From Comamonadaceae bacterium (lineage in GTDB: Bacteria > Pseudomonadota > Gammaproteobacteria > Burkholderiales > Burkholderiaceae_C): a DNA stretch of 32,643 nt. The notes beneath the pieces are model-generated. The model ran no database searches, had not been told where the DNA came from, and saw only the letters and a program-made list of their open reading frames with translations. The stretch spans positions 1-32,643 of the forward strand of contig CANCJD010000007.1 in the NCBI GenBank assembly GCA_947378275.1, read 5' to 3'. Of the stretch, positions 6,334 through 32,643 are shown in pieces (the first letter of the stretch is position 1; each line of letters starts with the position of its first letter). Position numbers and translations under genes: made by a program.

Positions 6334-7194
6334 CTAGGCGAAGAGGGCGTCAAACCCGCCTTCGGCCTCAAAGCGCTTGTTGCGCCAGAACAGGCGCGAG
6401 GGGCCGGGCATGGCGCGCGCGCGCACCGAGTGCTGCGCGTCGCCGGGGTAGCAGATCACCCGTTCGCCGTCCTGGTTAAAAGCCTCGGGCATGATGACCG
6501 GCGGGGGGCGGCTGGCGGCCTCAGTCAGTGCGCTGGCCACCGTGGCGTGGCGCGAGAGCTGCGCCAGGCTCATGATCTGCGGCGGAGCCAACTCGATTTC
6601 ACGGTCCCAGTATTGCTGCAGCGCGGTGCGGGGTTGGAGCCAGGCGCTCTCAGTGGCTTCGACGTTGTCGTGTGCGGCCAGCTGGCCCTCGGGCATGGCA
6701 GCGATAAAAAACCGGGTGTCGAAGCGCTTGTTGGTGACCGAGGGCATAAGCGGCGTGATCCAGCGTGTCCAGGGCTGCACCGCGCTGGTGTGCAGGCGCA
6801 GTTGCTGGGCGGCAAGCCGCGCATGAAAGTCTGGTGCCGCAGCGGCGGTGCTGGTGCCCGTCCCGGTGCCGCTGGCAAACAGCACGCCAGATTCTTCGAA
6901 CGTCTCGCGCAGAGCGGCGACAAACAGTCCGCAGGCGGTGGCCTGGTCGGTGCCAGATTCACCCAGCGCTGCGTGCAGCAGCGCCGCGTCGCGGTCAAAG
7001 TGTGCGTGGTGGGCGGCGTCGCAGTCAGCGGTGTCCAACTTGCCGCCTGGAAAGACGTAAGCGCCACCCAACACGTCGGACAAGCCATGGCGCTTGACCA
7101 AAAACACTTCCAGCCCTTGGGTGCCGTCGCGCAGCATGACTACGGTGGCCGCGTCGCGCGGGGGCAGGGTGGGGATTTCGGAGTTGAGTTCCAT
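6334..7194 (-). CDS. NUDIX hydrolase (NUDT19/RP2p-like, with insertion in the Nudix region)
   Basis: GGAYVFPGGKLD ... ALRETFEESGVLF; ATG at 7194 (the listed 7203 start is GTG). Confidence 0.85.
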   Translation of the reverse strand: MELNSEIPTLPPRDAATVVMLRDGTQGLEVFLVKRHGLSDVLGGAYVFPGGKLDTADCDAAHHAHFDRDAALLHAALGESGTDQATACGLFVAALRETFEESGVLFASGTGTGTSTAAAAPDFHARLAAQQLRLHTSAVQPWTRWITPLMPSVTNKRFDTRFFIAAMPEGQLAAHDNVEATESAWLQPRTALQQYWDREIELAPPQIMSLAQLSRHATVASALTEAASRPPPVIMPEAFNQDGERVICYPGDAQHSVRARAMPGPSRLFWRNKRFEAEGGFDALFA

Positions 7195-7304
7195 GCGTGT
7201 CACATTCGTTGCGTGGGTAATTGAGGCGGTAGCTGGCGTGCAGTAGAGTCAGCCTTTTGTTTTGGCGGCTGCGGCTGCCTTTTGCCACTTGATTGGAGAA
7301 TTTT

Positions 7305-8213
7305 ATGGCCCTGGACTTTAAAGACCGTGTAGCAATTGTGACCGGTGCCGGTGGTGGACTGGGTCGCCTGCACGCGCTGGCGCTGGCCAAGCGCGGTGCC
7401 AAAGTGGTCGTCAATGACCTGGGCGGCGCGCGTGACGGTTCCGGCGGTTCGGTGTCGGCGGCGCAGGCGGTGGTCGCAGAAATTGAAGCGGCTGGCGGCG
7501 TGGCCATGGCCAACGGAGCGTCTGTGACCGACTACGCGGCGGTGCAAGCCATGGTGCAAGCGGCGGTGGATGCCTGGGGCCGGGTGGATATTTTGGTCAA
7601 TAACGCGGGCATCTTGCGCGACAAAAGCTTTGCCAAGATGGAGATCGACGACTTCCGCCTGGTGCTTGATGTGCACCTCATGGGCGCTGTGCACTGCACC
7701 AAGGCGGTCTGGCCGCATATGGTGGCGCAAAAGTACGGCCGGATTCTGATGACCACGTCGAGCAGCGGCTTGTATGGCAACTTTGGGCAAAGCAACTACG
7801 GCGCAGCCAAGATGGCACTGGTGGGGCTGATGCAAACGCTGTCGATTGAGGGCGCAAAAAGCAATATCCACGTCAACTGCCTGGCGCCCACGGCGGCCAC
7901 GCGCATGACTGAAGACCTGATGCCGCCCCAGATTCTGGAAGCCCTCAAGCCCGAAGCCGTGGTGCCCGCCATGCTGGTGCTCGTGGCCCAGGACGCGCCC
8001 ACCCGCACGATTTTGTGCGCGGGCGCGGGCAGCGTGGAGGCAGCGCAAGTCACGCTGACCCAAGGCGTCTGGATGGGCCTGGGCAGCGACGCGCCTGAGC
8101 AGTTGCAAGCGCAGTTGGCGCAGGTAAGCGACGGCCACGACGCTGCAGTGCCCGCCAGCGGTGCAGCCCAAGGCGCCCTTGAGATTGGCCGCGCCAGCAA
8201 ACATCTGGCCTGA
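7305..8213 (+). CDS. SDR-family oxidoreductase, resembling the (3R)-hydroxyacyl-CoA dehydrogenase unit of MFE-2
   Basis: VAIVTGAGGGLGRLHALALAKRGAKVVVNDLGG, NNAG, catalytic YGAAK; RBS GGAGAA before ATG 7305. Confidence 0.9.
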   Translation: MALDFKDRVAIVTGAGGGLGRLHALALAKRGAKVVVNDLGGARDGSGGSVSAAQAVVAEIEAAGGVAMANGASVTDYAAVQAMVQAAVDAWGRVDILVNNAGILRDKSFAKMEIDDFRLVLDVHLMGAVHCTKAVWPHMVAQKYGRILMTTSSSGLYGNFGQSNYGAAKMALVGLMQTLSIEGAKSNIHVNCLAPTAATRMTEDLMPPQILEALKPEAVVPAMLVLVAQDAPTRTILCAGAGSVEAAQVTLTQGVWMGLGSDAPEQLQAQLAQVSDGHDAAVPASGAAQGALEIGRASKHLA

Positions 8214-8230
8214 AGTGGCGCGTGGGAGGG

Positions 8231-8296
8231 GTGTGCGGGGGCGCTTGTAATAGCCCGCTTGCGCCCCATATGCACACGACTGTGCTAACTTCACAG
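8231..8296 (+). promoter_or_regulatory. Tandem/overlapping stem-loops in the SDR-gshA intergenic region
   Basis: GTGTGC-G-GGGGCGC (8231-8244) pairs with GCGCCCC-ATAT-GCACAC (8261-8277), 13 bp with a 1x4 internal loop; second hairpin CTGTG (8280-8284)/CACAG (8292-8296). Confidence 0.5.
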
Positions 8297-8319
8297 CGTT
8301 GAATGGATTTTGAGGGCCT

Positions 8320-9849
8320 ATGGGCATGACAGAAAGCAATACCGCCCTCGTTGGCATAAGCACGCAAAGCCTGCTGGGCATTCGCCGGGGCATTGAAAAA
8401 GAAAGCCTGCGCTGCGACCCCGACGGCGTTTTGGTACGCACGCCGCACCCGGCCGCATTGGGCTCGGCGCTGACGCATCCGCATATCACCACCGATTTCA
8501 GCGAGTCGCAAGTCGAATTGATTACCGGCGTGCACGCAGGCGTGCAAAGCTGTATCGACGAGTTGCGCCAGGTGCAAAAATTCACCTTGCAATCCCTGAG
8601 TGACGAGCTGCTGTGGGTGTCGAGCATGCCTTGCAAGCTGCCAGCGGACGACGCTATTCCGCTGGGCCAGTATGGCAGTTCCAATGTGGGCCAGGCCAAA
8701 ACCGTGTACCGCAGTGGTCTGGGCTACCGCTACGGGCGTCGCATGCAAACCATCTCCGGCATCCACTACAACTGGTCCATGCCCGGCCTGTCCAGCGAAG
8801 CCTATTTTGGGCTGATCCGTAATTTCCGCCGCCATGCGTTTTTGCTCTTGTACCTGTTTGGCGCCTCGCCTGCGGTGTGCGAGTCCTTTGTGGCCGGGCG
8901 CAGCCATTCGCTGCAGGTCCTGCACCCCGGCACCATGGGTTTGCCCTATGCCACTTCGCTGCGCATGGGGCGCCTGGGCTACCAAAGCGACGCCCAAAGC
9001 GCACTTGCCGTGAGCTACAACAGCCTGGAAGGTTACGCCGCGTCCTTGCACCAGGCGCTGACCGTGCCCTACGCCCCGTACGAAGCCATTGGCGTGCAGG
9101 CACCGGACGGCCACTTTCGCCAGCTAACTACCAGCTTGTTGCAAATCGAGAACGAGTTTTACGGCACCATCCGCCCCAAACGGGTGATTTTTCAGGGCGA
9201 ACGCCCCTTGCACGCGCTGCGCGAGCGCGGGGTGGAATATGTCGAAGTGCGCCTGATGGACCTCGATCCGTTCGAGCCCGTGGGCATTAGCGCCCGTACT
9301 CTGCGCTTCTTAGACGTGTTTTTGCTGCATTGCCTGAGCCAGCCCAGCCCGGACGATTCGCCACAAGAGATTGCTGCCATGGCGCGCAACCAGCAGTGTG
9401 TGGCCGAACGCGGCCGTGAACCCGGTCTGCAGTTGCAACGCGGGGACGCTCAAGTAGCGCTGACCGACTGGGGCATGGACTTGGTGCGCCAATTCGGGCC
9501 GCTAGCCCGCGCGCTGGACGCGGCGCACGCTTGCACAGACTACACCGACGCGATAACGCAGGCCGAACACGCCTTGCACCACCCTGAGACGCTGCCTTCG
9601 GCGCGGGTTTTGCAGTCCATGGCGCACGATTTTGGCGGCTCGTTTTCTGCGTTTGCCAAGGCGCACTCCGCGCAAACCAAGGCGCAAGAGCTGGCCGAAC
9701 CGCTTCAGGCGCACGAGCTGGCCCACTTCCAGCAGTTGGCCGAAGCATCGATGGCGCAGCAGCGCGCTATTGAAGACGCGGACAGCCTGCCCTTTGACCG
9801 CTACTTGACGCAGTACCTGTCGCCGGATCGCCTAGGTCGCGCCGCTTGA
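8320..9849 (+). CDS. gshA: Glutamate--cysteine ligase (E. coli GshA type)
   Basis: GIEKESLRC near N-terminus, DFSESQVELIT, ISGIHYNWS, YVEVRLMDLDPFEPVGI. Confidence 0.95.
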   Translation: MGMTESNTALVGISTQSLLGIRRGIEKESLRCDPDGVLVRTPHPAALGSALTHPHITTDFSESQVELITGVHAGVQSCIDELRQVQKFTLQSLSDELLWVSSMPCKLPADDAIPLGQYGSSNVGQAKTVYRSGLGYRYGRRMQTISGIHYNWSMPGLSSEAYFGLIRNFRRHAFLLLYLFGASPAVCESFVAGRSHSLQVLHPGTMGLPYATSLRMGRLGYQSDAQSALAVSYNSLEGYAASLHQALTVPYAPYEAIGVQAPDGHFRQLTTSLLQIENEFYGTIRPKRVIFQGERPLHALRERGVEYVEVRLMDLDPFEPVGISARTLRFLDVFLLHCLSQPSPDDSPQEIAAMARNQQCVAERGREPGLQLQRGDAQVALTDWGMDLVRQFGPLARALDAAHACTDYTDAITQAEHALHHPETLPSARVLQSMAHDFGGSFSAFAKAHSAQTKAQELAEPLQAHELAHFQQLAEASMAQQRAIEDADSLPFDRYLTQYLSPDRLGRAA

Positions 9850-23851: not shown

Positions 23852-24030
23852 GGTGTTTGGGTCCAGATAGGTGTTCAAGAAGTGCTGCGCAAGCAAGGGC
23901 GTTAGCCAAAGTGTGCGACACGCTGGATTATCGCGAAACCATGCGCCCGCCTGCTGTGGCGCCGAAATGCCCTTGGCGAAGATGGTTGTCACCGTTGGTC
24001 CTGGGCCAAGGCAAGCCTGGGCTGGCAGCG

Positions 24031-24058
24031 TTGCAGCGCCAGAGGCCTCGCATAAAAT
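24031..24058 (+). promoter_or_regulatory. Sigma70-like promoter for 24083 ORF
   Basis: TTGCAG (24031-24036), 16-bp spacer, TAAAAT (24053-24058). Confidence 0.4.
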
Positions 24059-24082
24059 CACCGTCAACGTTAGAAAGAAACA

Positions 24083-24340
24083 ATGTTTGATAAAACCGGT
24101 GAGTGGATTCCCCTGCAGTCGTTTGACGATTTTGACAACGGCTTGTCCGACCTGATTGACCTGTGGTCGAGCACGGGTCGGTCGCCCACCAAAACCGTCA
24201 AAAAAGCAGCGCTGGCGCATTTCAAGGCAGATCTGGAAGCCGCCACTCTGGAATGGGCCGACAACAAAGCCAAGTCCAAAAAATACGCTGCCATTGCCGC
24301 AGAGCTGGCCGAGTTTGAAGAAGCGTTGCAAGACGTCTGA
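24083..24340 (+). CDS. Hypothetical protein, 85 aa
   Basis: Open frame with promoter-like sequence upstream, 9 nt before the RluE-like gene; no recognised motif. Confidence 0.65.
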   Translation: MFDKTGEWIPLQSFDDFDNGLSDLIDLWSSTGRSPTKTVKKAALAHFKADLEAATLEWADNKAKSKKYAAIAAELAEFEEALQDV

Positions 24341-24349
24341 TCCACGGCT

Positions 24350-24901
24350 TTGCCCCCTGAGTGGCGCCCCTTGATTTGCTTCAACAAACCGTATGGCGTG
24401 CTCAGCCAGTTCACGCCCGAGGGGCGCTGGCGGGGTCTGAAAGACTTCATCGACATTCCCCACGTCTACGCCGCCGGTCGTCTGGACGCCGACAGCGAAG
24501 GCCTGCTCTTGCTGACCGCCGACGGCCAGGCCCAAGCCCGCATTGCTGATCCGCGCTTCAAGATGGAAAAAACCTATTGGGTGCAAGTGGACGGCGTGCC
24601 CACCGAAGCCGCACTTGCCGCCCTGCGCCAAGGCGTGCTGCTCAAAGACGGCCCCACGCTGCCCGCCCGCGCGCGCGCCATCGACGCCCCAGCGGACCTA
24701 TGGGAGCGCGATCCACCCATCCGGGTGCGCCAAAACAAACCCACCGCATGGCTGGAACTCGCCATCAAAGAAGGCCGCAACCGCCAGGTGCGGCGCATGA
24801 CCGCCGCCGTGGGTCTGCCCACCTTGCGCCTGGTACGTGCGGCTATCGGCCCCTACGCGTTGGAGGGGCTGGCTCCAGGGTGTTGGCGGGAGGTGGGCTA
24901 A
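24350..24901 (+). CDS. rluE: 23S rRNA pseudouridine synthase, RluE-like (RsuA/RluB/E/F family)
   Basis: [17 protein letters not shown], catalytic [49 protein letters not shown] start. Confidence 0.88.
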
Positions 24902-24937
24902 AGCGACACCCCTGGTGCGCCGGTTAAGCGGGAATCG

Positions 24938-26764
24938 TTACTTCCCAAACGAATCCTTCAACCCCACCGCCAAATTAAACACCGGCTGGCTGCCTTGCAC
25001 ATGGTCCACCCGGTCCGCCACAAAGTAGCCCAGGCGTTCAAACTGAAACTTCTGGTCGGGCAGGGCGTTGGCCAGTGACGGCTCCACGATGGCGGTGACG
25101 ATTTTCAGGCTTTGGGGGTTCAGGCCCTCCAGAAAGTCTTTGCCGCCGGCATCGGGTTGTTCGTCGCTGAACAGGCGGTCGTACATGCGCACTTCGGCGG
25201 CCACGCCGTCATGGGCGCCCACCCAGGTGATCACGCCCTTGACCTTGACGCTGGACGAGCCGGGCGTGCCGCTTTTGGTGTCTGGGATCAGGGTGGCGTG
25301 CACTTCGGTGATGTGGCCGTTGGCGTCTTTTTTGGCGCCGGTGCATTCGATGATGTGGCCGTATTTGAGCCGCACCTTGTTGCCGGGGAACAGGCGAAAG
25401 AAGCCGGCCGGGGGCGTTTCTTCAAAGTCGCTGCGCTCAATCCACACCTCGCGCCCGATCACAAACTGGCGGTTGCCCAGTTCGGGGTGGTGCGGGTGAA
25501 CGGGAGCGCTGCAGGCGTCAAGCGTGCCTGCGCCCATGACGGAGTCCCAGTTGGTCAGCACGAGTTTGACGGGGTCCAGCACCGCCATGGCGCGCTGGGC
25601 CGAACCGTCCAGGTCTTCGCGCAGACAGCCTTCCAGCGTGGAATAGTCAATCCAACTGTCGCTCTTGGTCACGCCAATGCGTTCAGCAAAGAGGCGCAGG
25701 CTCTCGGGCGTATAGCCCCGGCGGCGCAGGCCGACTATTGTTGGCATGCGCGGGTCGTCCCAGCCGCTTACTTTGTGTTCATTGACGAGCTGCGCGAGCT
25801 TGCGCTTGCTGGTGATCACATAGGTCAGGTTCAGACGGGCAAATTCGTATTGCTTGGGCGGCGGGCTGGCCAAGAGGCCTTCCTCAATCAGGCGCTCCAT
25901 CAGCCAGTCGTAAAACGGCCGCTGGTCTTCAAATTCGAGCGTGCAAATGCTGTGGGTGATTTGCTCGAGTGCGTCTTCAATCGGGTGGGCAAAGGTGTAC
26001 ATCGGGTAGATACACCAGGTGTCACCCGTGTTGTGGTGCGTGGCGCGGCGGATGCGGTAGATGGCCGGGTCGCGCAGGTTGATGTTGGGGCTGGCCATGT
26101 CAATCTTGGCGCGCAACACCATGGAGCCGTCCGCGTGCAGACCGTCGCGCATTTCGCGAAAGCGCGCCAGGTTTTGGGCGGGCGTGCCGCTGCGATAGGG
26201 GCTGTCGATGCCGGGTTTGCCAAAATCGCCGCGGTTGGCGCGCATTTCCTCGGGTGTTTGTTCGTCCACATAGGCGTGGCCCGCCTCTATCAGCGCTTCG
26301 GCCGCGCGGTACATGAAGGCGAAATAGTCGCTGGCCTGGTAGGGCTTGTTATTACCCGGCTGGCTCCAGTCAAAGCCCAGCCAACGCACCGCGTCGATGA
26401 TGCTGTTCACATACTCGGTGTCTTCTTTTTCAGGATTGGTGTCGTCAAACCGCAAGTGGCAGACGCCACCATAGTCACGCGCCAACCCAAAGTTCAGACA
26501 AATGCTCTTGGCGTGGCCCACGTGCAAGTAGCCGTTGGGCTCGGGCGGAAAGCGGGTGCGGATGCGGGCTGGGTCCATCGTGCCCGTGGCCTGGTGCGCG
26601 GCGTCGCCGGGGCTGCCCGCCCAACGGCGCGTGGCGTAGGTGCCAGCCGCCAGATCGTGCTCAATAATCTGTCGCAAGAAGTTGCTTGGTTTGGTGGCTT
26701 CGGGCGCGGTGGCGGTATGGGCGCCAGACTTTGCAGCAGGCTTGGCAGAAATAGGGTTACTCAT
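24938..26764 (-). CDS. glnS: Glutaminyl-tRNA synthetase
   Basis: TRFPPEPNGYLHVGHAKSICLNFGLA, RFDDTNPEKEDTEYV, CIYPMYTFAHPIEDALE, VITSKRKLAQLV. Confidence 0.97.
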   Translation of the reverse strand: MSNPISAKPAAKSGAHTATAPEATKPSNFLRQIIEHDLAAGTYATRRWAGSPGDAAHQATGTMDPARIRTRFPPEPNGYLHVGHAKSICLNFGLARDYGGVCHLRFDDTNPEKEDTEYVNSIIDAVRWLGFDWSQPGNNKPYQASDYFAFMYRAAEALIEAGHAYVDEQTPEEMRANRGDFGKPGIDSPYRSGTPAQNLARFREMRDGLHADGSMVLRAKIDMASPNINLRDPAIYRIRRATHHNTGDTWCIYPMYTFAHPIEDALEQITHSICTLEFEDQRPFYDWLMERLIEEGLLASPPPKQYEFARLNLTYVITSKRKLAQLVNEHKVSGWDDPRMPTIVGLRRRGYTPESLRLFAERIGVTKSDSWIDYSTLEGCLREDLDGSAQRAMAVLDPVKLVLTNWDSVMGAGTLDACSAPVHPHHPELGNRQFVIGREVWIERSDFEETPPAGFFRLFPGNKVRLKYGHIIECTGAKKDANGHITEVHATLIPDTKSGTPGSSSVKVKGVITWVGAHDGVAAEVRMYDRLFSDEQPDAGGKDFLEGLNPQSLKIVTAIVEPSLANALPDQKFQFERLGYFVADRVDHVQGSQPVFNLAVGLKDSFGK

Positions 26765-26801
26765 GCGTTTGATTTTAGACGGGGCCTTTTGAAGATACGC
26801 G

Positions 26802-27215
26802 CTACAGCCAACCCAGCCACTGGTGCCAGATCAGTGTGCCCAAATAGCGGTTGGGCAGCAGCGTAAAACCACCGGCCACCACGCAGGCACCCAGGTACAG
26901 CGACTGCATGGTTTTGCGGTGCCCGGCGATGTTTTTGTGCCGCAGGAAACGAAAAGCGCCGAACAGGCTAAACAGCGTAAACGGCACCAACAAATGAATC
27001 GGCGTGTAGCCGGCCAGATTGGGCAGGTCAAAGTCGCGGATGAAAACTGCCGAAAAAGCCGTTACCAGCATCAATGTGACCCAGGCGTAGCCAAATGCGC
27101 GGTGCAGCACCGGGCGCTGGGTGCGGCCCTTGCGCGCCCATAAAGCCACAGGACCCAAAGCGACAGCGCCCAAAGCGGCAGTCATGTGGACGGCAATCAA
27201 GGGGGTGAGTTGCAT
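26802..27215 (-). CDS. DUF2306-like membrane protein
   Basis: Four hydrophobic segments with [58 protein letters not shown]. Confidence 0.8.
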
Positions 27216-27357
27216 GGTGTTTGGATGGGCTGGAGGTGAGAGCGCCGGAGCTTACAGGAGCCCGCCGCGCGCCTCGGGCCTGCAGCCGATGGAGACCGCT
27301 GCGCCATGGGTGAGAAAATACCGGGCTTACTTGCGACAAACCACCAAGGATAAAACT

Positions 27358-28209
27358 GTGATCGATATTGTGCTGCTGGCCAAAGCCGCCCTGATGGGCA
27401 TTGTGGAGGGCCTGACCGAGTTTTTGCCCATCTCGTCCACCGGGCATCTGATTTTGGCTGGGGCCCTGCTGGGTTTTGACGACGAAAAGGCCAAGGTCTT
27501 TGACATTGCCATCCAGACCGGCGCCATTTTTGCGGTAGTGCTGGTGTATTGGGACAAGATCAAGTCCACGGTGCTGGGCTTGTCCACGCAGGCCCAGGCC
27601 CGCGCGCTCACACGCAATGTGTTCATCGCTTTTTTGCCAGCAGTCGTACTGGGTTTGCTTTTTGGCAAAGCGGTCAAGGCGCATTTGTTTACGCCCGAGG
27701 TGGTGGCCAGCACTTTTATTCTGGGCGGCTTCATTATTTTGTGGGCTGAACGGCGCCAAGCGGCGGCCGAGGACGTGCAATTTGGCCGCTTTGCCCGCGT
27801 GCAAACCGTGGAGCAAATGACGGCGATGGACGCGCTTAAAGTGGGGTTGGCCCAATGCCTGGCGCTGGTGCCGGGCACCAGCCGCAGCGGCGCGACCATC
27901 ATCGGCGGTATGTTGCTGGGCCTGTCGCGCCAGGTGGCCACCGAGTTCACCTTCTTTTTGGCCATTCCCACGCTCATCGGCGCCGGCGCCTATAGCCTGT
28001 TTAAGGAGCGCGCCTTGCTCAGCGTGGCTGACGTACCCTTGTTCATGGTGGGGCTGGTGTTTTCATTCATCAGCGCCTGGCTGTGCGTGCGCTGGCTGCT
28101 GCGCTTTGTGTCTACCCATAGCTTTGTGGGTTTCGCCTACTACCGCATTGCCTTTGGCATGGTGGTGTTGGCCACTGCCTTTAGCGGCGCCGTGACCTGG
28201 GCGGCCTAA
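27358..28209 (+). CDS. uppP: Undecaprenyl-diphosphatase (BacA/UppP)
   Basis: [42 protein letters not shown] start at 27358 with AAGGA upstream. Confidence 0.96.
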
Positions 28210-28227
28210 ATCTCTTTTGACAGGGAA

Positions 28228-28243
28228 GGGCGCTCAGGCGCCC
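28228..28243. terminator. GC hairpin between convergent uppP and hydrolase; the stop codon lies in its tetraloop on the minus strand
   Basis: GGGCGC-TCAG-GCGCCC, 6-bp perfect stem; minus-strand loop CTGA contains the stop TGA. Confidence 0.45.
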
Positions 28244-29037
28244 ATATTGCGCAGCGAGGCCTCAATAGCAGCGGCGGTGACCAGCGGTTTTTCCATCGGG
28301 AAAAGGTGGCTGCCGTCAAGCATCATGGTGCGGCCCTTGGTGAACTGGTCGGTCATGGACATGCCGACCCTGCGCATTTCCACCGACTGGCGCCCGCCGA
28401 TAAAGCTCACCGGGCACTTGAGCGGGTGCCGTTTGAACAGGCGGTCCAGGTTGTCAGGAATCGTGTTGTAGATTTGGGTCTCGATCTCGCGGTCAAAGGC
28501 CAGCACGCGCTTGCTGTCTTGCTCTACCGTGCCGTGGCTTATGTAGTCGTGCAACACTTCGTCGTTCCAGTGAGCAAACGCCTTTTTGTGGCGAAAGTGC
28601 TCAAACGCGGCCTCGGCGCTGGGCCAGCTATTGCGCCGCTTGTGGCTTACTGCACCCGGCGACACGCTGCCCACCAGTTGCGCACCCTTGATCATGCCCA
28701 GCGCGGTGGAGCGCCAGCCGCCCAGAATGGGCGAGTCCAGCAGCAGCACGCCGCGCGCGAGTTCCGGGTGTTTGGCTGCGGCCATCAGGCTCAATATGCC
28801 GCCCAGCGAATGCCCCACCATCCATACCGGCTGCCCCAGTTTGTCCACCTGGGTGTGGGTGAATTCGGCCACTTGCTCCACCAGGCCGCGCCAGTTGTTG
28901 TCCACCGGATGGCGCGGGTCGTGGCCCAGCTTTTCGATGGCCTTGACGCTAAAGCCGCGCGCGCGCAGGTGCTTGAAAAGCACCCGATAGGTGCTGGCGG
29001 GAAAGCTGTTGCCGTGAAAGAAAACGATGGGGGTCAT
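28234..29037 (-). CDS. Alpha/beta hydrolase
   Basis: VFFHGNSFPASTYRVLF, nucleophile elbow VGHSLGGILSL, C-terminal GSHLFPMEKP. Confidence 0.9.
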   Translation of the reverse strand: MTPIVFFHGNSFPASTYRVLFKHLRARGFSVKAIEKLGHDPRHPVDNNWRGLVEQVAEFTHTQVDKLGQPVWMVGHSLGGILSLMAAAKHPELARGVLLLDSPILGGWRSTALGMIKGAQLVGSVSPGAVSHKRRNSWPSAEAAFEHFRHKKAFAHWNDEVLHDYISHGTVEQDSKRVLAFDREIETQIYNTIPDNLDRLFKRHPLKCPVSFIGGRQSVEMRRVGMSMTDQFTKGRTMMLDGSHLFPMEKPLVTAAAIEASLRNMGA

Positions 29038-29049
29038 GCAGTGGCGGGC

Positions 29050-29877
29050 TTAGATCAGCTTTTCTTCGGGCGTGCTGATCTTTTTCAAGGGCAGGTTGCG
29101 TTGGGAATGCAGGCGCAGCGGCACCTCGGTGGGGCCGCCATTCCACATCGGGTCTTCGATGCTGTCAAAGACTTCGCGCAGTTTTTGGCCCCAACTGTTG
29201 TGCAACATTTTGAAGTAGGGGTTGTTTTCGTCAATGCAGACAATTTTGTCGGTGCTAAAGCTATTGGCCTCGTAGACCACCATGTCCAGCGGCAAACCCA
29301 CGGACAGATTTGATTTAAGGGTGGAGTCCATGGAAACCAGAGCGCATTTGGCGGCTTCTTCCAGCGGCGTGTTGGGCGTGATAACGCGGTCAAGCACCGG
29401 TTTGCCGTACTTGGACTCGCCGATCTGAAAGTAGGGCGTCTCGGGCGTGGCCTCAATAAAGTTGCCGGCTGAATACACCTGAAACAGGCGCATGCCTTCG
29501 CCGGCAATCTGGCCACCAAAAATCAGGGACACATTGAAATCCATGCCCGCTTGTTTGAGCGACTCAGCGTCGCGCTGGTAGACCCGGCGAATGGCCGCGC
29601 CCAGCACACGGGCGGCGTCAAACATGCTGGTGGCGTTCCAGATGGTGGTGCCAGCGGCGTCGCCGTTTTCCTTGAGCTGCTCGACCTGCAAAATCTCGCG
29701 CACCGACTGCGCAATGCTCAGATTGCCCGCTGACAGCAGCACCATAAAGCGGTCGTCGGTCTTTTCGTAGACGATCATCTTGCGAAAGGTGTTGATCTGG
29801 TCCAGACCTGCGTTGGTGCGCGAGTCCGAGAGAAACACCAGGCCGGCGTTGAGTTTGATGGCGACGCAATAAGTCAT
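29050..29877 (-). CDS. Anbu-type (ancestral beta subunit) proteasome-like peptidase
   Basis: MTYCVAIKLNAGLVFLSDSRTNAGLDQINTFRKM: Thr nucleophile after Met removal, D17, K32; LLSAGNLSIAQSV, FGGQIAGEGMRLFQVYSAGNFIEAT. Confidence 0.92.
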   Translation of the reverse strand: MTYCVAIKLNAGLVFLSDSRTNAGLDQINTFRKMIVYEKTDDRFMVLLSAGNLSIAQSVREILQVEQLKENGDAAGTTIWNATSMFDAARVLGAAIRRVYQRDAESLKQAGMDFNVSLIFGGQIAGEGMRLFQVYSAGNFIEATPETPYFQIGESKYGKPVLDRVITPNTPLEEAAKCALVSMDSTLKSNLSVGLPLDMVVYEANSFSTDKIVCIDENNPYFKMLHNSWGQKLREVFDSIEDPMWNGGPTEVPLRLHSQRNLPLKKISTPEEKLI

Positions 29878-30120
29878 GGGCAACGGGTATTTTTAGAAGC
29901 AAAGCCGCTGATTATCGGTGCACCCGTGCGTTGCAGGCGTACGCCAGCGTGCAAATGGCGCCGTTACCCCGAGGCTGCGCTGCCATTCAGGCGCGCCTGC
30001 GGTGCGTCGCTAGAATCAGGCGACCACAGTCCTGGGTCGTGGCAGCCGCCGCGAAGCATGCTGATTGCCCCGGGCATTTTTGCTAAACCTCTACTTTTCA
30101 TCCCCGCACACCCTGTTTCC

Positions 30121-30567
30121 ATGTCCGAAGGCCCGCTGAACCACCCCGATGCGCAGGCTACTGCCCCAGCCACGCCCACCGCGCCTGCCGACGCGGCTTG
30201 GGGACTCGTGGACGCGGGCAATGCTGCGGGAGCGCGGGTGCATGCCCCGGCCCCCGCCTACCAAAACCTGGCGCAGCAAATGCAGGTGTTCCTGAGCCGC
30301 ACCGACCTGCAGCACGGGCGCAAAAACAAGTTTTTCCTGCAGCAGACGCTGGAGCTGCTGGCAGAACTCGACCAGCACACCGCGCGCGAAACGCATTTGC
30401 AAACCGCTTTGCAAGACACCCAAGCGCAAATCGTGCGCCTCAAACAAAAGCTGGTGGATATGGCCGCCGATTCGGTGGACGCCGAGCAAGAAGCGCTGGC
30501 CATCGCTCAGGCGCGCGCGCACCTGGCCAGCTTGCTGCACGACAAGCTGGTGCAAGAGTTTAAATAA
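30121..30567 (+). CDS. Hypothetical protein with C-terminal predicted coiled coil
   Basis: Start at 30121 (MSEGPLNHPDA); Ala/Pro-rich N-terminus then Gln/Leu/Glu-rich helical stretch. Confidence 0.7.
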   Translation: MSEGPLNHPDAQATAPATPTAPADAAWGLVDAGNAAGARVHAPAPAYQNLAQQMQVFLSRTDLQHGRKNKFFLQQTLELLAELDQHTARETHLQTALQDTQAQIVRLKQKLVDMAADSVDAEQEALAIAQARAHLASLLHDKLVQEFK

Positions 30568-30585
30568 GCCCCCCCAGACAACGCC

Positions 30586-31158
30586 ATGTTTTTCATCGCC
30601 ACCCTGTGGGCCGCCGTGCTCAATCTCTGTTTTCTGACGGCCGCCTTGGCTTGGACGCCCGCCTTTTGGACGGACGCCGCCCACTGGCTGCAGGCTTTGC
30701 CTTGGCGCACCTTTGGCACCGAGCTGGGCGCTTTGCTGCAAATGCACCCCGCAGACGCGGGCACCGTGTGGGCGCTGTGGCTGTGCGTGAGCGCGTTCTT
30801 GCTGGTGGGCGCACTGGCCGCCTATGTGCTGCTCAAGCTGCGCGCCCCGACCGCCACCGTGGCGCCCCTGCCCACGCCCGAAGTCGCGGCCATGTTTGGC
30901 AATTTGTCCAGCAGCTTGCAGGGTTTGCAGGGCTTTGGCGACCTGGATGCGCCCGCGCCCAAGGCAATCAGCCCAGCGCCTGCCGTTGCTGCAATACCAG
31001 TCGCCCAAGACGTGCACACCGTTTCTGCCCTGATGGCGCAAGAGCCAGCGCCAGCGCCTGCGGCTATCGGTGCGTCATTGCAAGAAATTGACCCCGAACT
31101 GGGCTCTAGTTACGACGCACTGTTGCGCGAGCTGGGGTCGGCGCGACCCTTGAAGTAA
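30586..31158 (+). CDS. Hypothetical membrane protein, two hydrophobic segments and a Pro/Ala-rich tail
   Basis: MFFIATLWAAVLNLCFLTAALAW and TVWALWLCVSAFLLVGALAAYVLLKL; starts 18 nt after the preceding ORF. Confidence 0.72.
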   Translation: MFFIATLWAAVLNLCFLTAALAWTPAFWTDAAHWLQALPWRTFGTELGALLQMHPADAGTVWALWLCVSAFLLVGALAAYVLLKLRAPTATVAPLPTPEVAAMFGNLSSSLQGLQGFGDLDAPAPKAISPAPAVAAIPVAQDVHTVSALMAQEPAPAPAAIGASLQEIDPELGSSYDALLRELGSARPLK

Positions 31159-31165
31159 CGCTACT

Positions 31166-31183
31166 GCGCCCCGCGCAGGGCGC
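31166..31183. terminator. GC hairpin between convergent membrane protein and mutS
   Basis: GCGCCC-CGCGCA-GGGCGC, ending 2 nt before the mutS stop; no T tract. Confidence 0.35.
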
Positions 31184-31185
31184 CG

Positions 31186-32643
31186 CTACGTTGCCGCAAG
31201 CGCCTTGAGCTGGTAAATCGCATCCATCGCCTCACGCGGGCTCATGGCGTCGGGGTTCAGGGCGGCGACGGCCGCTTCTACGGCGCTGGGGGCGGCCAGC
31301 GCTTCCAGAGGTGGCGCGGCAAACAGATCGACTTGGGCGCGCGATGCGGTGGACTGGGCCTCTAGCGCATCCAGCGTGCGCCGGGCCTGGTTGAGCACCG
31401 CAGCGGGCATACCGGCCAGGCGCGCCACTTGCACGCCGTAGCTGCGGCTCGCGGGCCCCGGCTCTATGGCGTGCAAAAACACAATGTCGCGTCCCGACTC
31501 GGCGGCGCTCACATGCACATTGACCGCGCCATGGTGGCTGGCGGGAAACTCGGTCAGCTCAAAGTAATGCGTGGCAAACAGGCAAAAGGCTTGGGTTTTG
31601 TCGTGTAACTGGGTGGCAATGGCGCTGGCCAGGGCCAGGCCATCAAAGGTAGACGTGCCCCGGCCAATCTCGTCCATCAGCACCAGCGACTGCGGTGTGG
31701 CGCTGTGCAATATTTGTGCGGCTTCCACCATTTCCAGCATAAAGGTCGATTGCGCATTGGCCAGGTCGTCGGCGGCGCCAATGCGGGTGTGGATGGCGTC
31801 CATCGGCCCCAGGCGGCAGGCACTGGCCGGCACATACGAGCCCACGCTGGCCAGCAACACGATCAGCGCCACCTGGCGCATATAGGTGGATTTGCCGCCC
31901 ATATTGGGGCCGGTAATCACCTGCAGGCGCTGGCGGAGCCCGAGCTGCGTGTCGTTGGCAATAAAGCAGCCGCTGCTCAGTTCAGCCAGACGCGATTCCA
32001 CCACCGGGTGGCGGCCCTGGGAAATTTCGATGCAGGGGTGTTCGACAAACTGCGGTGCGCACCAGCCCAGGGTGAGCGAGCGCTCGGCCAGGGCGCACAG
32101 CGCGTCCAGTGCAGCGAGCGCGCGCGCCAAGCGCGTGAGCGGGCTCACAAAGGCTTGCAAAGCGTCCAGTACCTGCTCAAACAGCCATTTTTCGCGGGCC
32201 AGGGCGCGCTCTTGGGCGCTCAGCGCCTTGTCTTCAAAGGTCTTTAGTTCGGGGGTGATAAAGCGCTCGGCGTTTTTCAGGGTCTGGCGGCGGCGGTAGT
32301 CGTCGGGCACTTTGCTGGCCTGACCCTGGGTCACCTCAATATAAAAACCATGCACCTTGTTGAACTGCACGCGCAAATTGGCAATGCCGGTGCGCGTGCG
32401 CTCGCGTGTTTCGAGGTCGAGCAAAAAAGCGTCGCAATTGGTCTGGATGGCGCGCAGCTCGTCCAGATCGGCGTCAAAGCCGCTGGCAATCACGCCGCCG
32501 TCGCGCACCAGCGCGGCGGGCTCGGGCGCAATGGCGCGCAGCAGCAGGGCGGCGCAATCATTAGGCGGCAGCAGATCGGTGCCAATGCGTTCCAACAAGG
32601 TGCCGGCAGCGCCCAGGCCAGTGATTGATTCCTGGTCGGCCTG
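31186..32643 (-). CDS. mutS: DNA mismatch repair protein MutS, C-terminal part (5' end beyond window)
   Basis: Walker [71 protein letters not shown]. The frame stays open through 32643. Confidence 0.97.

Follow-up and report, generated by a model that had tools for sequence, protein, structure and literature searches.

An apparently relocated, tailed Anbu subfamily that probably still serves the amidoligase pathway in trans

Anbu proteins of the Anbu-1 type form a dodecameric, open split ring that is held by the C-terminal helix. The known operon is composed of ATP-grasp, alpha-E, transglutaminase and anbu genes (Iyer et al. 2009, as summarised in PMC5666114). In P. putida, Anbu is up under nitrogen limitation (PMC5666114). 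In B. cenocepacia, the ATP-grasp, alpha-E and transglutaminase genes need NtrC, and the cluster is activated by NtrC and sigma-54 (PMC5491218). Peptidase assays with the Anbu of the published operon were negative, and a stable complex between it and the other proteins of the cluster was not found (PMC6376114). Since these assays gave no peptidase activity, general proteolysis is not assumed here. The published operon studies did not show in what way the products work together.

The window analyzed here is a stretch of 32,643 nucleotides on contig C7 of a Comamonadaceae bacterium. The source genome is a draft assembly of 2.2 Mb, split into 197 contigs and about 70% complete. Open reading frames were listed for positions 24000-32643 of the window, and alpha-E was searched for in the whole genome. 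The features are collected in Table 1.

Table 1. Features of the anbu locus in the window and a promoter-like site elsewhere in the same genome.
Feature	Position	Strand	Basis or remark
Alpha/beta hydrolase (Abhydrolase_6)	28234..29037	-	Pfam 54.9 bits, cut-off 26.3
anbu-hydrolase intergenic stretch, 12 nt	29038..29049	-	Sequence
anbu, 275 aa, ATG at 29877	29050..29877	-	phmmer to solved Anbu proteins, residue conservation
Anbu C-terminal tail, residues 246-275 (linker and end motif PLKKISTPEEKLI)	29053..29142	-	Absent from most cluster-type Anbu
anbu upstream region	29878..29960	-	CCGATAAT, sigma-70-type -10-like, read by eye; no good sigma-54 site (scan)
Two uncharacterized genes between mutS and anbu	30121..31158	+	tblastn on relatives
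mutS, C-terminal part in window	31186..32598	-	Synteny in relatives; ancestral neighbor of the hydrolase
Sigma-54-like site TGGCCCAAGTCTTGC	L084:10545-10605		Followed 46 nt later by the ATP-grasp start codon; window's own genome

The anbu product resembles solved Anbu proteins over their full length. Phmmer aligns residues 1-245 with E-values from 1e-63 to 1.8e-90, e.g., 5loy (1.8e-90), 5nyw (2.5e-80), 5nyj (7e-71), and 5nyf (2.6e-70). Pfam and NCBIfam see it merely as a weak member of the proteasome family, and its 23.6 bits against TIGR03634 (archaeal-type proteasome beta subunit) lie below the cut-off of 224. Thr is residue 2 of the reading frame, and removal of Met would expose it as Thr1. 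Asp18 and Lys33 of the frame correspond to Asp17 and Lys32 in mature numbering, and Thr1/Asp17/Lys32 do not vary in an alignment of 129 Anbu homologues. From the S1 pocket list of Anbu-1 (PMC5666114), Thr20, Phe30, and Leu52 can be read from the sequence, with Ser at 48 and Ala at 55 where Thr48 and Ser55 are listed. An AlphaFold monomer built on a 43-row alignment has a pLDDT of 62.9, with low confidence in the C-terminal helix region and nothing firm on the tail, and was set aside as weak.

The stop codon of anbu ends at 29050 and the hydrolase begins with an ATG at 29037, which leaves 12 nt between them; the gene that precedes anbu lies on the opposite strand. The earlier note had described an Anbu gene with Thr1/Asp17/Lys32-type residues, a stop 12 nt from the start of a same-strand alpha/beta hydrolase, a divergent upstream gene, and a lack of the usual neighbors. 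The similarity, alignment, and coordinates bear out the first three points, and the genome-wide alpha-E search below does the same for the last. By tblastn, the two genes between mutS and anbu are recognized in the nearest relatives only (L002, L003, L006, and L007), and the one tested has no Pfam match. The hydrolase is a generic Abhydrolase_6 protein whose nearest solved relatives are monoacylglycerol lipases, with weak E-values. Its nucleophile elbow GHSLGG (Gly75-His-Ser-Leu-Gly-Gly80) and His244 are near-invariant.

The four-gene linkage of the known operon is absent from the window, and alpha-E has no match on C7. Alpha-E occurs twice in the genome, on contigs C24 and C40. On C24, a ComEC-type gene with Competence and DUF4131 domains is followed by ATP-grasp and, directly downstream, alpha-E; this locus has no transglutaminase gene after alpha-E. 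On C40, alpha-E is fused to ATP-grasp, with a DUF2126-transglutaminase on one side and another transglutaminase gene on the other. Neither contig carries Anbu, and the pathway genes are thus present yet unlinked to anbu. The search found no second Anbu in this incomplete assembly, so the window Anbu is not a redundant copy, and that option was rejected.

Among 80 close relatives, the order mutS-anbu-hydrolase predominates, and the hydrolase lies next to anbu in 65. A second set was drawn from the GTDB family of the window's genome and comprised 71 well-assembled genomes, the window's own included, with an Anbu identity threshold of 62%. At or above this threshold, anbu and the hydrolase are paired within 300 nt in 43 of 61 genomes, and none of these 43 Anbus has alpha-E within 10 kb. 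Below it, alpha-E is no more than 2 kb away and the hydrolase is unlinked in eight of ten genomes. In the outgroups, Anbu sits beside ATP-grasp/alpha-E, and mutS and the hydrolase are direct neighbors. In eleven genomes with anbu elsewhere, mutS and the hydrolase are adjacent and 17-60 nt apart, an "empty site". Inserts of about 3.6-3.9 kb occupy the mutS-hydrolase gap at L183, L186, and L189 and the anbu-hydrolase gap at L128.

In the Anbu tree, which omits the tail columns, 56 mutS-linked and 5 re-linked Anbus form one clade with an SH-aLRT of 98; the trees are quick searches with this support measure only. The clade is nested among alpha-E-linked, cluster-type Anbus. The simplest account of gene order and tree would be one move of anbu into the mutS-hydrolase gap. 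Synteny and the single tree clade support a move near the base of a large Burkholderiaceae clade (in the GTDB sense, including Comamonadaceae), and we infer that the moved copy originated in the same genome. No paper on a link between Anbu and mutS was found in the literature searched.

Tailed Anbus are again found beside amidoligase genes at L105/L156, L155, L074, and L057 (G036/G147, G092, and two Limnohabitans). Three genomes that the mutS tree places close to the window's group (G003, G013, and G131) nevertheless carry a cluster-type Anbu, with nothing between mutS and the hydrolase, which suggests that a tailed copy was later replaced by a cluster-type one. A tailed and an alpha-E-linked Anbu were not seen together in any of the genomes examined. 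Two Anbu matches occur in seven genomes, and in the two inspected the second copy is of a different type near a transglutaminase-like gene. These copies (L153:5343-6068 and L154:5453-6250) lack the tail and are about 45% identical, and each of the two genomes has a tailed Anbu as well. L105 contains, directly downstream of its tailed anbu, an 819-aa reading frame (6832-9291, minus strand) that is an apparent fusion of a transglutaminase-like and a circularly permuted ATP-grasp part. In G126 (L162:4006-11977), a ComEC-type gene, ATP-grasp, alpha-E, transglutaminase, anbu, and the hydrolase stand in a row, the only case seen of the hydrolase in a cluster.

Members of the window's clade have in common a tail of about 30 residues that ends in PLxKIxxPxEKLI. 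Cluster-type Anbus mostly stop near residue 245, and those of the moved clade are 273-282 aa long, with one exception. Three cluster-type Anbus near the clade (L097, L162, and L163) have extra C-terminal residues of unrelated sequence. The pN/pS ratio is 0.176 for the tail end (263-275), 0.645 for the linker, and 0.118 for the core. By these ratios, the tail end is held almost as tightly as the catalytic core and the linker is loose, the pattern of a putative short linear motif on a flexible arm. In basal clade members (L135, L136, and L158-L160), the tail end is diverged, shortened, or changed, and the tail and the move may therefore not be simultaneous. HslU docks on HslV through its C-terminal tails. 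By analogy, and tentatively, the PLxKIxxPxEKLI-COOH tail might be a docking peptide through which relocated Anbu is bound and switched on by the distant ATP-grasp/alpha-E proteins or by a neighboring subunit. If so, we know of no interaction handle identified for Anbu before it.

The promoter regions differ between the moved gene and its former cluster. Side-by-side upstream sequences show that CCGATAAT is kept upstream of anbu in all six nearest relatives. Sigma-54-like -24/-12 sites were sought with a home-made score at a threshold of at least 0.85. Of 21 clade genomes, 13 (the window's own included) have such a site in the 150 nt that precede ATP-grasp, mostly 40-51 nt before the start codon; weaker versions stand at equal distance in most of the others. 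Within 300 nt upstream of mutS-linked anbu, sites are found in only 14 of 117 cases, with comparison values of 3/111 for mutS, 3/123 for the hydrolase, and 2.4% for shuffled sequence. It is therefore probable that anbu, through the move, escaped control by nitrogen limitation. An NtrC-like palindrome upstream of the window anbu (11/12) was dropped because it is not kept in relatives.

Taken together, the relocated, tailed Anbu subfamily probably still serves the amidoligase pathway in trans, with the hydrolase as a positional hitchhiker. The sole Anbu found in this genome would belong to a subfamily that moved from the ATP-grasp/alpha-E/(transglutaminase)/anbu cluster into the gap between mutS and the hydrolase. 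This Anbu retains the active-site residues and carries a tail with a loose linker and a constrained end. The ATP-grasp/alpha-E genes remained elsewhere with a sigma-54-like promoter sequence in front, still tracked by Anbu from genome to genome. Anbu may act as a threonine Ntn-hydrolase and trim or hydrolyze the peptide or amide product of the ATP-grasp/alpha-E/transglutaminase enzymes, in trans since the move and under a different promoter. As a docking motif, the tail would hold Anbu to a partner or shape its own ring.

The tie to the pathway comes from co-occurrence. Alpha-E is present in 149 of 150 genomes with Anbu (70/70 and 79/80) and in 11 of 32 without it (Fisher 1.6e-18, over all genomes and ignoring relatedness). 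The window's own genome has both, as do all 60 genomes of the GTDB-family set with an unlinked Anbu of at least 62% identity. Class-wide, alpha-E occurs in 41 of 43 further genomes with Anbu, and the two exceptions match half of Anbu only. G015 has a tailed Anbu and no detected alpha-E. In nine genera with one Anbu-positive and one Anbu-negative genome, alpha-E is gone from the negative member in all nine (sign test 0.004), and the hydrolase is kept in eight. For at least three of these genera the cluster is linked in the sister genome, so that joint loss there is less telling, and some of the joint losses are deletions of such a cluster. Where the sister's Anbu is clearly unlinked (genera g25, g65, g86, g97, and g113), the Anbu-negative genome lacks alpha-E in 5/5 and retains the hydrolase in 4/5. 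Alpha-E is present in eleven genomes that have no Anbu, so the amidoligase can dispense with Anbu, and the co-occurrence is no proof of joint action.

The earlier note had allowed for Anbu acting as an orphan or with the hydrolase, and neither role fares well. An independent orphan protease with no tie to the amidoligase, whose tail recruits a new unfoldase or adaptor, would account for the lost linkage and sigma-54-like promoter, the newly gained conserved tail, and the absence of alpha-E within 10 kb of the 43 hydrolase-paired copies. Such a role is nevertheless unlikely, given partner genes on other contigs, near-absolute co-occurrence with alpha-E even when unlinked, joint losses within genera, re-linkage in at least three lineages, and the replacement of tailed by cluster-type Anbu in close relatives.

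The presence of the hydrolase is independent of Anbu: it occurs in 58 of 71 genomes with Anbu and in 24 of 32 without (p = 0.44). Of the 61 genomes with an Anbu of at least 62% identity, 13 lack it; it stays behind in most within-genus Anbu losses and adjoins mutS where anbu is elsewhere. These observations make it quite improbable that Anbu and the hydrolase are a working pair, co-transcribed and acting on the same substrate or with an acyl or ester group removed before or after Anbu acts. This is despite the same-strand conservation in close relatives and the second set, with gaps of mostly 2-66 nt, and despite G126, where the hydrolase follows anbu inside the cluster by an apparently separate linkage. 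On the co-occurrence test, the hydrolase was rejected as partner in the main reading even with the separate link in G126; it is probably a positional neighbor, and a functional role is unlikely. An assembly or binning artefact, as a fragmented draft might invite, is refuted by the identical mutS-anbu-hydrolase order in many independent genomes, single-contig ones included (G198, AP026970), and its chance is negligible.

With an Anbu that is unlinked and probably differently expressed, but still tied to alpha-E/ATP-grasp, the clade parts gene linkage from functional dependence. The tie names a partner worth testing for Anbu, and the conserved tail is a concrete handle for finding binders. Since tailed and cluster-type Anbu seem to have been exchanged in nature, complementation suggests itself as a ready test.

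Compared with known systems, the window Anbu is closest to Anbu-1 of P. aeruginosa (PMC5666114) and Y. bercovieri (PMC6376114). It belongs to the same family by sequence and has the same Thr1/Asp17/Lys32, three of the listed pocket residues, and the usual single copy per genome. Unlike Anbu-1 of known structure, it is encoded outside the ATP-grasp/alpha-E/transglutaminase operon, between mutS and the hydrolase, and extends past the usual end near residue 245 by about 30 conserved residues. The known four-gene operon has its likeness in the ATP-grasp and alpha-E pair and in the DUF2126-transglutaminase/ATP-grasp-alpha-E fusion/transglutaminase cluster of the same genome, but these lie on two other contigs and without Anbu. 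HslV, which has no match in the genome (of little weight at 70% completeness), and the 20S proteasome beta subunit have the superfamily and catalytic residues in common with the window Anbu, which differs in scoring far under the archaeal beta-subunit cut-off and in having no linked unfoldase gene in view.
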